DNA from: Frankia sp. AgB32
GTDB taxonomy: Bacteria; Actinomycetota; Actinomycetes; Frankiales; Frankiaceae
Length of the DNA: 57,402 nt
Assembly (NCBI RefSeq): GCF_023243045.1
Contig: NZ_JALKFX010000036.1
Location: 1 to 57,402, forward strand
Direction: 5' to 3'
The position numbers and the translations under genes were made by a program. The notes under the pieces are model-generated. The model ran no database searches, was not told where the DNA came from, and worked only from the letters and a program-made list of their open reading frames with translations. Of the stretch, positions 30,995 through 33,678 are shown in pieces (the stretch's first letter is position 1; every line of letters starts with the position of its first letter).

Positions 30995-31023
30995 CCTGTG
31001 GACGCAGCGGAGATATCCACAGG
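30995..31023. repeat. Inverted repeat in the comEA-yceI intergenic region
   Basis: CCTGTGGA (30995-31002) and TCCACAGG (31016-31023) are perfect 8-bp inverted arms separated by 13 bases. The right arm with its flank (ATATCCACA) is one base off a DnaA box. It lies 50-80 bases upstream of comEA; possible operator or replication-protein site. Confidence 0.45.
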
Positions 31024-31125
31024 ACAGGAGTCGAGGCCCGACCGAACCCGGTCGGCCCGGTACGGTCACGCCAGACAGTCGAGGGCGACGGAATACCCGT
31101 CGGAGCACCGCGTTGGATGACAGAA

Positions 31126-31139
31126 GTTGCGCATGCAAC
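31126..31139. promoter_or_regulatory. Candidate MarR-type operator upstream of yceI
   Basis: GTTGC-GCAT-GCAAC is a 5-bp inverted repeat of the TTGCnnnnGCAA type commonly bound by MarR-family repressors. It lies 72 bases before the yceI ATG. No MarR gene is in the window, so this is inference. Confidence 0.4.
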
Positions 31140-31211
31140 CAACTGCGGGCGCGCCTCGCCGGGGGGAACGCGGCAGGGGGCCGACCCGCCCAACACATCT
31201 TGGAGGACCCG

Positions 31212-31775
31212 ATGACGGCTCCCACGACGGACCTGACCAGCCTGACCGGTACCTGGACGATCGACCCGGCGCACTCGCGGATCGGATTCGCCGCGCGCCA
31301 CGCGATGGTCACCACCGTGCGCGGGCAGTTCTCCGCTGTCGAGGGCTCGCTCAACCTCGACGGCACGGAGCCGACCGCGTCCACCGCGACCGTCACCATC
31401 CAGACGGACTCCTTCTCCAGCGGAGTCCCGGATCGGGACGGTCACGTGAAGTCCGCGGACCTCCTCGACGTCGCGGCGTACCCCACGATCACCTTCGTCA
31501 GCACCGGCGCCACCGCCGGCAAGGGCGACGACGAGTACGTGCTGACCGGCGATCTGACGATCCGCGGCGTCACCCAGCCGATCGACATCGACATCACGTT
31601 CGAGGGCAGCTCCAAGGACCCGTTCGGCAACGTCCGCGCCGGCTTCACCGGTACGACGGCGCTGAACCGCAAGGACTTCGGCCTCACCTTCAACGCCGTG
31701 CTGGAGACCGGCGGTGTACTGATCAGCGACAAGGTGAAGGTCGAGCTGGACATCTCCGCGATCAAGGCATCCTGA
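31212..31775 (+). CDS. YceI-family lipid-binding protein
   Basis: A 187-residue lipocalin-like beta barrel of the YceI family, whose members bind polyprenoid or other amphiphilic lipids. Recognisable family blocks: TWTIDPAHSRIGFAARHAMV near 14-33, SADLLDVAAYPTITFVS near 81-97, LTIRGVTQPIDIDITFEG and LNRKDFGLTFNAVLETGG. No signal peptide, as usual for actinobacterial YceI. The ATG follows GGAGG by 5 bases. A ferredoxin gene starts 125 bases downstream on the same strand. Confidence 0.93.
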   Translation: MTAPTTDLTSLTGTWTIDPAHSRIGFAARHAMVTTVRGQFSAVEGSLNLDGTEPTASTATVTIQTDSFSSGVPDRDGHVKSADLLDVAAYPTITFVSTGATAGKGDDEYVLTGDLTIRGVTQPIDIDITFEGSSKDPFGNVRAGFTGTTALNRKDFGLTFNAVLETGGVLISDKVKVELDISAIKAS

Positions 31776-31900
31776 CCCTGTCAATGGCCATCGGCGACCT
31801 CGCTGTGGTCTGCTGGGGGACGTCGCTGTTCCCGCACGGACCACGGCGGTAGGGTCCACACGACTACGACATTCTGGAAGCATTACCGGGAGGTCCGCCG

Positions 31901-32095
31901 ATGCGCGTGAACGTCGACTTCGACCGTTGCGCGAGCAGTGGAACATGTGTCCGGCTAGTCCCTGACATCTTCGAGATCCGCGATGACGGTTACCTCTATG
32001 TCCTGCAGGAGGAACCTGACGAGTCGCGGACAGATGACCTTCAGGAGGCGGTCGAGTGCTGTCCGACCGAGGCGATCAGCATCAGTGAAAGCTGA
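31901..32095 (+). CDS. [3Fe-4S]-type ferredoxin
   Basis: A 64-residue acidic electron carrier. Cysteines are C10-x5-C16 (RCASSGTCVRLVPDIFEI) and, near the C-terminus, CCPTEAI. A three-cysteine set with CxxxxxC and a late CP is typical of actinobacterial single-cluster ferredoxins that feed cytochromes P450 and similar oxygenases. The ATG follows GGGAGG by about 8 bases. A TAGGGT hexamer near 31851 may be its -10. No P450 is in the window, so its partner is unknown. Confidence 0.93.
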   Translation: MRVNVDFDRCASSGTCVRLVPDIFEIRDDGYLYVLQEEPDESRTDDLQEAVECCPTEAISISES

Positions 32096-32186
32096 CCGCT
32101 GCTAGATCGGCGCGCGCAGTACACCGGCTGGCGCCGGATCCGACGTGGAACGTCCGCAGCGGATACGGCGCCACCTGCCGGGTATT

Positions 32187-32234
32187 CCTCTCCCCGTGGA
32201 CCCGCGCAACTCGCGGGGGTCCACGCAGGGGAGG
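32187..32234 (+). promoter_or_regulatory. Hairpin that buries the Shine-Dalgarno of the HdeD-like gene
   Basis: GTGGA-CCCGCG (32196-32206) pairs with CGCGGG-GG-TCCAC (32212-32224; two-base bulge), closing a five-base loop. Below a small internal loop, CTCCCC with its preceding T (32190-32195) pairs with GGGGAGG (32228-32234), which is the ribosome-binding site 7 bases before the ATG at 32242. The whole Shine-Dalgarno is thus base-paired, a layout that suggests translational control such as thermosensing or protein binding. Confidence 0.6.
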
Positions 32235-32241
32235 TGCCACG

Positions 32242-32817
32242 ATGGCAACGATCTACCGACAGCAGCGGCAACATGCCGCGCCCAGCGCGTTGTGGCCCGC
32301 GCTTCTGGCTCTCGGCACGGCCGTCACCATCCTGGGGCTGCTGCTCATCACCAATCCGTTCGCGACCGCCGGGGCACTGGCTGTGCTCGCGGGGATCGCG
32401 CTGATCCTGTCGGGGATCAGCGAGACGATCGCGGCCGCGCGGTCGAAGAACACGGCGACCGCCGCGTTCTTCGGGATGCTGCTGGTCCTCGGTGGAGTGA
32501 TCGTCCTGGTGTGGCCGGGAGTCACTCTGCACGTCGTGGCTGTGGTCGTCGGCGCCGTTCTGATCGTCAGCGGCCTGGTGCGGGCGGCGATGATGCGACC
32601 ATCATCATCACGGTCGTCGCAGGGCGGCTCTGGAGGAGCGGTCTGGGGCTACGTGCTTGGCGCGCTCAGCGTGGTGGTGGGGATACTCGCGCTCGTGTGG
32701 CCCGGAGTGACGATCGTCGTGCTGGCGGTTCTCTTCGGTATTCAGCTGATCGTCGCCGGCGTGGCGGAAATCGCGCTGGCGCTGGCGCTGCGGCCGCATC
32801 CGCAGCATCCAGCCTGA
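32242..32817 (+). CDS. HdeD-family (DUF308) membrane protein
   Basis: A 191-residue protein with six predicted transmembrane helices in two triplets (LWPALLALGTAVTILGLLL, ALAVLAGIALILSGISETI, FFGMLLVLGGVIVLVWPG; then VWGYVLGALSVVVGILAL and two more). The repeated VWPGVT motif (LVWPGVTLHVV, LVWPGVTIVVL) is typical of HdeD proteins, linked in enterics to acid stress. The function here is not shown. GGGGAGG lies 7 bases before the ATG but is sequestered in a hairpin. Confidence 0.9.
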   Translation: MATIYRQQRQHAAPSALWPALLALGTAVTILGLLLITNPFATAGALAVLAGIALILSGISETIAAARSKNTATAAFFGMLLVLGGVIVLVWPGVTLHVVAVVVGAVLIVSGLVRAAMMRPSSSRSSQGGSGGAVWGYVLGALSVVVGILALVWPGVTIVVLAVLFGIQLIVAGVAEIALALALRPHPQHPA

Positions 32818-32889
32818 CCTCGCCGGGCGGCCCGGGCCGGTGCCGCGCCGCCGGCCTCGGCCGAGCGCGACACCCACCCGCACCGGGAA

Positions 32890-33678
32890 TCAGTCGAGGA
32901 TGCGGTCCCGCCAGCGGCGGATCGACTCGTCGCTGGCCCCGTGCTCCAGGAGCCAGCCGGCGACCCCGCCCGGGTGCCCGTCGGTCGCGGCAAGCACCGC
33001 CTCGGCGGCCTCCGGCGAGATCCTGGTCAGCTCCCCGCCCGCCTCCACGGAGCCGGTGCCGGGCAGGATCGCGTGGCCCCGCAGCCTTCGCAGGACGCCT
33101 GGCATGTTCGGCCCGGTGGCGGCGTAGTCGTCGAGGATGTCCCGCTCGATCACGCCTGCCAGGCGCAGCAGCACGGCGACGGTGACGCCGGTGCGGTCCT
33201 TGCCCGCGGCGCAGTGGATGAGCACCGGGCCGGGCGCCTCGGCGACGAGGTTGACGATCTGCGCGATCTGCGGCGCCGCGTACTTCACCATCACCTGATA
33301 GAGCGCGCCCAGGCCGCGCTCGATGGCATTCTTCCTGGCGGCCGAGTGGCCGGCGGTGGGCTGGTCATCGAACAGCGGAATGACCACGACGGTGGCACCG
33401 AGGGCCGCAAGCGGATGCGCGTCAGGTCCCCGCTCGATCGCGGACCGCAGATCGATCACCGTGCGAGGCGGCCAGGTCAGCTCGGACGGCGGACGATCCT
33501 CGACCTTGGGCATCTCACTGCGGTAGAGCACCCCGGCACGGGTGCGCCGACCATCGTCGGTCGGCAGGCCACCGACGTCACGCAGGTTGACCAGCCCGGA
33601 GATGTCCGGCGGAGCCGGCGCCTCCAGCGGCACGGCGTCCGCGCCGCCCGGGACATCTGGATCGGTTACGGACGTCAT
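32890..33678 (-). CDS. Tyrosine/serine protein phosphatase (DSP-like)
   Basis: A 262-residue phosphatase of the actinobacterial tyrosine phosphatase family related to mycobacterial PtpB. The N-terminal NLRDVGGLPTDDGRRTRAGVLYRS block (31-54) and the P-loop HCAAGKDRTG (C156, R162) are intact, followed by the family C-terminal helices. It would hydrolyse phosphotyrosine or phosphoinositide by a cysteine nucleophile. No signal peptide. A strong GGAGGAGG sits 4 bases before the ATG at 33678. It stands alone on the minus strand. Confidence 0.93.
   Translation of the reverse strand: MTSVTDPDVPGGADAVPLEAPAPPDISGLVNLRDVGGLPTDDGRRTRAGVLYRSEMPKVEDRPPSELTWPPRTVIDLRSAIERGPDAHPLAALGATVVVIPLFDDQPTAGHSAARKNAIERGLGALYQVMVKYAAPQIAQIVNLVAEAPGPVLIHCAAGKDRTGVTVAVLLRLAGVIERDILDDYAATGPNMPGVLRRLRGHAILPGTGSVEAGGELTRISPEAAEAVLAATDGHPGGVAGWLLEHGASDESIRRWRDRILD

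Follow-up and report, generated by a model that had tools for sequence, protein, structure and literature searches.

The ribosome-binding site of a DUF308 gene in Frankia sp. AgB32 lies in an RNA hairpin that masks it on RNA with the whole 5' arm, and the existence of this hairpin is confirmed here. Our best explanation, to which we give an even chance, is that a stress-type promoter starts the mRNA inside the hairpin, leaving a stem-loop that abuts an open Shine-Dalgarno (SD) sequence, and that sealing would be confined to RNA reading through from the ferredoxin gene upstream. The window, that is the whole stretch of 57,402 nucleotides analysed, belongs to a genome of 6.68 Mb in 274 contigs. 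The features of the locus are as follows.

31901-32095, + strand: ferredoxin gene (Pfam Fer4_13), co-directional and upstream, a possible source of read-through RNA
32161-32166, + strand: -35-like hexamer GGATAC, 13 nt upstream of the -10-like hexamer, fitting GNNT (available text of PMC8346170)
32180-32185, + strand: -10-like hexamer GGGTAT of the SigB/SigF type
32189-32195, + strand: outer 5' arm, complementary to the SD, mostly between the -10 hexamer and the predicted start
32193-32196, + strand: predicted transcription start zone, 8-11 nt downstream of the -10 hexamer by a spacing rule
32196-32224, + strand: inner stem-loop, the predicted 5' end of the mRNA, with 8 + 3 pairs, a G.G mismatch and its loop at 32208-32212
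32225-32227, + strand: 3-nt bulge GCA at the junction of inner stem and SD helix, from folding
32228-32234, + strand: 3' outer arm containing the SD, with GGAGG at 32230-32234, from sequence and folding
32242-32817, + strand: gene for a DUF308 (PF03729) protein of 191 aa, distantly HdeD-like

Folding of 32160-32260 gives a minimum free energy (MFE) of -53.3 kcal/mol (z -3.69), and none of 200 dinucleotide shuffles is equally stable. The hairpin, which ends shortly before the start codon at 32242, occupies 32189-32234 in one register and 32187-32234 in another. Its outer helix joins 32189-32195 to 32228-32234 by seven pairs including one U.G, in the register common to the related leader L004. 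The second register is about equally good and is the MFE structure in some folds; it pairs 32187-32193 with 32228-32234 and 32195 with 32225. The inner helix pairs 32196-32203 with 32217-32224 (8 pairs) and is topped by the mismatch 32204/32216, three further pairs (32205-32207 with 32213-32215) and the loop AACTC. The original prediction, in which the SD pairs with an upstream arm around a 5-nt loop, agrees with this fold; its 11-bp stem with a small bulge exists as a stem, but with 8 + 3 pairs and a mismatch, and the bulge lies between the stem and the SD helix. The start codon can form a tiny hairpin of its own at 32235-32247 (TGCCA/TGGCA), with similar, non-identical pairings in some relatives, which is probably due to chance.

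As controls we used 90 gene starts from 305 kb of this genome, selected mechanically for their codon composition and an SD motif, a rough set in which some starts are possibly internal or false and which lacks the DUF308 gene, as this failed the gene filter of the script. The MFE of positions -60 to -1 is -38.5 for the window leader against a control median of -21.8, and no control is as low (0/90). Opening of the SD in a 100-nt frame costs 8.97 kcal/mol compared with a control median of 3.93, a value exceeded by three of the 90 controls.

The calculated cost of opening the SD changes with the position at which the RNA begins. It is 10.1 kcal/mol for RNA starting at the ferredoxin stop codon or at 32186, 7.7 from 32190, 3.9 from 32192 and 2.2-2.4 on the predicted short RNA with starts at 32193-32196 (3.0 with a shorter tail). 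By these calculations the SD of the short RNA is ordinary when set against the control median of 100-nt leaders, and that of the long RNA is sealed. The full burial of the SD claimed earlier is borne out for RNA that carries the whole 5' arm (about 9-10 kcal/mol), and such RNA would correspond to the sealed long transcript of a phage T4-type arrangement. A scan of 37 GGGTA/SD-start pairs, covering 616 kb of the 6.68 Mb, finds the largest drop at the window site (7.1, median 0.0). The next largest, 5.8 kcal/mol, belongs to a GGGTA/SD pair before a gene for a metallo-beta-lactamase-fold protein (L070:12059-13206, contig C22 of the same genome), which is without the required -35 box.

For RNA starting at the ferredoxin stop codon, the mean unpaired probability of GGAGG is calculated as 0.007 at 37 C, 0.02 at 50 C and 0.07 at 70 C. 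An RNA thermometer is rejected because the full hairpin is too stable and does not melt by calculation; the heat-opened switch proposed earlier is therefore not borne out. In the wider form of the switch reading the main mRNA has the whole hairpin, and heat, a protein, a ligand or a small RNA opens it. The complete burial of the SD on long RNA and the conserved inner stem speak for this idea and are the parts of it that stand. However, the predicted start lies inside the arm, the calculated accessibility of the SD does not reach 0.08 at 70 C, the outer arm is weak in one group of relatives (clade B, below) and the window has no Rfam match at gathering score, so that no known riboswitch or RNA family is recognised in it; we regard the switch as improbable. 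Four sub-threshold Rfam matches near the hairpin are far below their cut-offs and belong to three microRNA families and one snoRNA family.

Orthologues of the DUF308 protein (E 1e-20) are present in 20 of 35 genomes of the family, namely 10/13 in the window's genus Frankia (g1, own genome included), 6/6 in the sister genus (g2) and 4/5 in a third Frankiaceae genus compared (g3), and hairpins occur at the same place as in the window. The g1 contigs include those of Frankia sp. QA3, AgKG'84/4, F. canadensis and AiPs1. Three Frankia genomes (G001, G004 and G006) give no DUF308 protein match at E 0.001 and no strong match to a covariance model of the leader (best E 0.33 in G001, none in G004 and G006). 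Gene and leader may have been lost together in these genomes, of which G004 is 88% and G006 85% complete, with a model that misses some leaders. The window protein carries the DUF308 domain (PF03729) but scores 40.7 bits against the NCBIfam HdeD equivalog (NF007577, PRK10209.1), for which the cut-off is 189. The original prediction called the gene HdeD-like and drew on the stress association of HdeD in enterics; with the equivalog cut-off missed, enteric HdeD is a weak guide to the function of this protein. The link to stress may nevertheless be correct for another reason, the type of promoter.

Upstream of the start zone, 32161-32185 resembles the promoters of Streptomyces SigB homologues and is predicted to be a SigB/SigF-type (general-stress) promoter. 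According to the available text of PMC8346170, such promoters in S. coelicolor have an almost invariant G at positions 1-3 and an A at position 5 of the -10 box, spacers of N12-14 and -35 boxes of the form GNNT, GTTT or GTG.. (the table includes GTGAAA, GTGATG and GTGTAG), GNNT being the -35 given for Streptomyces osmotic SigB-type promoters. GGGTA is found 5' of the hairpin in 16/16 g1 and g2 leaders, 56-94 nt upstream of the start codon; its base rate is 0.00037 per position (616 kb of the own genome, both strands), from which 0.015 are expected per 40-nt slot. The four g3 loci (L019-L022) have GGGAAC and not GGGTA at the aligned -10 box, so that the three leading Gs and the A in fifth place are present in 16/16 and 4/4 loci, respectively. 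GGGAAC is also the -10 box of one S. coelicolor SigB/SigF promoter, SCO5749p, in the same available text.

All 16 g1 and g2 leaders also contain a hexamer beginning with G located 13-14 nt 5' of GGGTA. A -35 box that is GNNT or GTTT-like at 12-14 nt is recognised as GGATAC-N13 in the window (L003), L004 and L005. The corresponding boxes are GTGC..-N13 in six clade-B loci, GTGC..-N14 in the six g2 loci and GTAGCG-N13 in L007; the GTGC.. and GTAG.. boxes of these 13 loci have only the leading GT in common with listed boxes such as GTGAAA and do not fit GNNT. In g3 the -35 position is occupied by GACTGG at N14 in 3/4 loci, which is a poor fit. A SigBFG sigma factor above its curated cut-off is encoded in the own genome. 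A simple scan not designed for actinobacterial promoters finds no sigma-70 promoter between 31000 and 33000. Among the matches listed in the open-licence literature there is neither a Frankia start-site map nor a study of this leader, and none deals with HdeD/DUF308 in Frankia.

In Table 2 of PMC8346170, as available, the 24 strings printed after the -10 box are 3-11 letters long, with a median of 9 and with 21 of them at 8-11, and our start rule assumes that the last printed letter is the mapped start. The start so predicted, 32193-32196, overlaps the end of the outer arm at 32189-32195, and G32196 is both the first purine of the zone and the first base of the inner stem. The original prediction took a start downstream of 32195 to speak against itself, and the predicted zone straddles this limit. 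For the family we used the first pyrimidine-purine step at +7 to +11 after the -10 box, a choice that favours the reading of a promoter within the hairpin.

Under this rule 18 of 19 leaders form a single domain that takes in at least 83% of the RNA between the predicted start and the SD, and no more than two bases at the 5' end are left unpaired. The exception is L007, which has no single hairpin; L013 and L014 are branched, and L005 and L011 are closed by a lone pair. A span of at least 83% is also reached by 15 of 32 control UTRs (rank test p=0.028), and the single-domain span alone is therefore modest evidence. Leader folds are stronger per base than the 32 controls (p=0.0006); all p-values of leaders against controls are too small because the leaders are related. 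These 19-leader calculations exclude L022, for which no SD hairpin adjoining a start was seen; the start of L019-L021 was reset to the ATG after GGAG, and for L013 the scripts used the more distant GGGTA, while in alignment A4 it is a closer GGGCAC that lines up with the box elsewhere. Compared with its g2 relatives, L013 has its GGGTA box at a greater distance from the start, and within the 95 nt upstream of its DUF308 start the leader looks partly tandem-duplicated, CCAGGTC.CGGGCACGAGC being present twice.

Access to the SD varies among these leaders. The SD cost on read-through RNA is at least 6.5 in 7/19 (L003, L004, L005, L013, L014, L015 and L018), and the difference between read-through and +9 RNA is at least 3.0 in 7/19 (L003, L004 and L005, which form the window's clade, L015 of g2, and L019, L020 and L021 of g3) and zero or below in 6/19 (L007, L008, L010, L014, L016 and L017). 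Such a difference (at least 3) occurs at 3/32 control GGGTA sites (rank test p=0.011), and the rank test on c+1 minus c+9 gives p=5e-5, with rows that are not independent. In clade B the read-through SD cost is 2.3-5.8 and the long RNA differs from the short by -1.5 to 2.1. Three g3 loci have long-RNA costs of 3.9-5.3, near the control median, and g3 values shift with the RNA chosen (0.4 for L020 in one calculation and 3.9 in another). A costly SD is retained on the short RNA of L010 (6.3) and L014 (6.9).

Compensatory changes among orthologous leaders, which the original prediction had named as a check, are found in the inner stem. The covariation alignment (A6) contains eight Frankia leaders; L005 and L007 were left out because they were poorly aligned in A2, for which the RNAalifold consensus is also poor. 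Among the eight, 89.4% of the cells are paired and double changes occur in 4/13 pairs (6 cells), a covariation score matched by 2/500 shuffles, and slid-partner controls contain no double-change pair in five of six cases and at most one. The number of pair types in the inner stem is ordinary (234/500 shuffles). At pair 32197/32223 the window and L011 have U-A, whereas L004, L006 and others have C-G, so that it toggles in both clades; L012 has one A-U where G-C stood. Clade B alone has a score matched by 43/500 shuffles, which is not significant. The g2 arms are very different in sequence and again fold beside the SD, and in their consensus (A4) the RNAalifold covariation term is unfavourable (+2.5). 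The inner stem thus covaries among the eight Frankia leaders and not demonstrably in g2. A short stem persists in three g3 loci. Shuffles of single leaders from +7 give z of -2 or below in 5/16, and in 3/16 the closure of the SD exceeds that of 95% of the shuffles, which is weak alone.

The conservation of the outer arm differs from this. The outer pair 32195/32228 changes between C-G and A-U, with both sides altered, between the two closest leaders. In the six loci of clade B the arm makes three SD-arm pairs only, one of them broken in 2/6. The original prediction regarded orthologues with the same SD and no upstream arm as evidence against it, and clade B goes part of the way to such a case. 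The SD is sealed on long RNA in the window's clade (3/3 loci) and part of g2; this does not extend to the whole family and, with so weak an arm in clade B, sealing looks lineage-limited. Silencing of read-through RNA is likewise suggested by the sequences of the window's clade (3/3 loci) and few others, and not by those of clade B.

The E. coli ompA mRNA carries a stabilising stem-loop at its very 5' end. The Frankia stem-loop would resemble it in lying at the mRNA 5' end, with the differences that it stands directly against the SD and that its start is predicted. In the nearest rival to our explanation, the stem is a pure stabiliser, shielding the 5' end of the mRNA while the SD stays free, and the upstream complementarity has no function of its own. 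The SD-adjacent stem-loop that the clades have in common is as expected for a stabiliser, as are the weak SD-pairing arm of clade B and the long RNA of L014, L016 and L017, which is no more closed. However, the upstream tract lowers SD access more than at the 32 other GGGTA sites (the two rank tests above), and the outer pair 32195/32228 went from C-G to A-U on both sides; we therefore consider a pure stabiliser rather unlikely.

The inverted repeat could also act as DNA, as an operator binding a dimeric regulator that overlaps the start. The repeat does overlap the predicted start, and the left arm of L006, GTGCGGATCCGCAC, alone forms a perfect palindrome of 14 bp. But L012 differs from L006 in both arms in such a way that the left-arm palindrome is spoiled (it is lost in others too) and the stem is kept, and arm sequences diverge widely between clades with their complementarity maintained, which makes an operator very improbable.

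A similarly slight probability attaches to the hairpin being the 3' end or terminator of the ferredoxin transcript. Such a role would suit a strong G+C hairpin about 94 nt downstream of the ferredoxin stop codon. However, the hairpin has no U tract and abuts the SD, and in g2 the leader is present at six loci whose examined flanks show no ferredoxin homologue. The three g1 genomes that have no orthologue also give no strong match to the leader model, which argues against a terminator, for a model that misses 5/13 known leaders. No terminator with a U tract turned up in a simple scan of 31000-33000. This result speaks for our explanation, as does the position of the ferredoxin gene, which lies co-directionally upstream of the DUF308 gene in 10/10 Frankia loci. 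A convergent phosphatase gene lies downstream in 9/10 of them (none was detected in L007).

A multi-copy or mobile repeat was considered and rejected, as a DNA search of the own genome returned the locus and one weak 46-base match. In 40 genomes the covariance model has eight matches below E 1e-8, which are its eight source leaders, and the others listed have E of at least 0.02. Of the 13 known g1 and g2 leaders contained in these 40 genomes it missed the five of G008, G010, G013, G019 and G022, and the absence of further copies is weakly shown because of these misses. Inspection of five weak matches (L045, L048, L057, L059 and L061) revealed no convincing case; the L048 hairpin follows GGGTAG and was taken, by assumption, to belong to the end of an opposite-strand gene.

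Phage T4 offers the closest comparison. The leaders of T4 e, soc, 49 and I-TevI have hairpins masking the ribosome-binding site (RBS), and in the available text of PMC3014915 and PMC2988022 a late promoter in the 5' strand is documented for e and I-TevI; transcripts from these late promoters just upstream are missing one side of the masking hairpin, its 5' strand, and are translated. The Frankia locus would be like T4 gene e, as described there, in that the SD would be sealed on long upstream transcripts and the short transcript of a dedicated promoter would be without the 5' strand and translatable. Unlike T4, it concerns a cellular gene and a SigB-like promoter, and it would leave the inner stem-loop on the short transcript. 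The seg43(25) leader of Aeromonas phage 25 has a very stable hairpin just upstream of an unmasked RBS, with an effect on translation that is left open in the available text of PMC2988022; it shares with our locus the stable hairpin immediately 5' of the RBS, but seg43(25) is a phage endonuclease gene. The S. coelicolor SigB-homologue promoters have in common with ours the -35 starting with G, the N12-14 spacing and the GGG..A. -10, and differ in that no 5' hairpin is described for them in the available text of PMC8346170.

Taken together, we propose that the SigB/SigF-type promoter at 32161-32185 would start transcription inside the 5' arm, at about 32193-32196. The short mRNA would then open with a stem-loop filling nearly the whole stretch to the SD, and it would be translatable because its SD is no harder to open than average. 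With its 5' end tucked into the stem, it would probably be protected from 5'-dependent decay. Read-through RNA from the ferredoxin gene would carry the missing 5' arm and have its SD sealed, and the DUF308 protein would therefore be made mainly from the stress-type promoter. The SigB-like promoter and the 5' stem-loop at the SD would form the shared core, to which some lineages would have added the sealing arm, which would silence read-through RNA.

More tentatively, and with considerable doubt on our part, the locus could be a chromosomal stress gate in the style of T4. An alternative-sigma promoter would lie within an RBS-masking hairpin, the gene would be deaf to read-through and only the stress sigma factor would enable its translation, with the 5' stem-loop kept across much of the Frankiaceae and the sealing arm gained or lost by lineage. 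If our explanation is true, a nitrogen-fixing plant symbiont would have an ordinary cellular gene in which the choice of start decides whether the RBS is open, and control by a stress sigma factor would be coupled to translation without a ligand or sensor. It would also be a reason not to read SD-masking hairpins as switches until the start of the RNA has been located.
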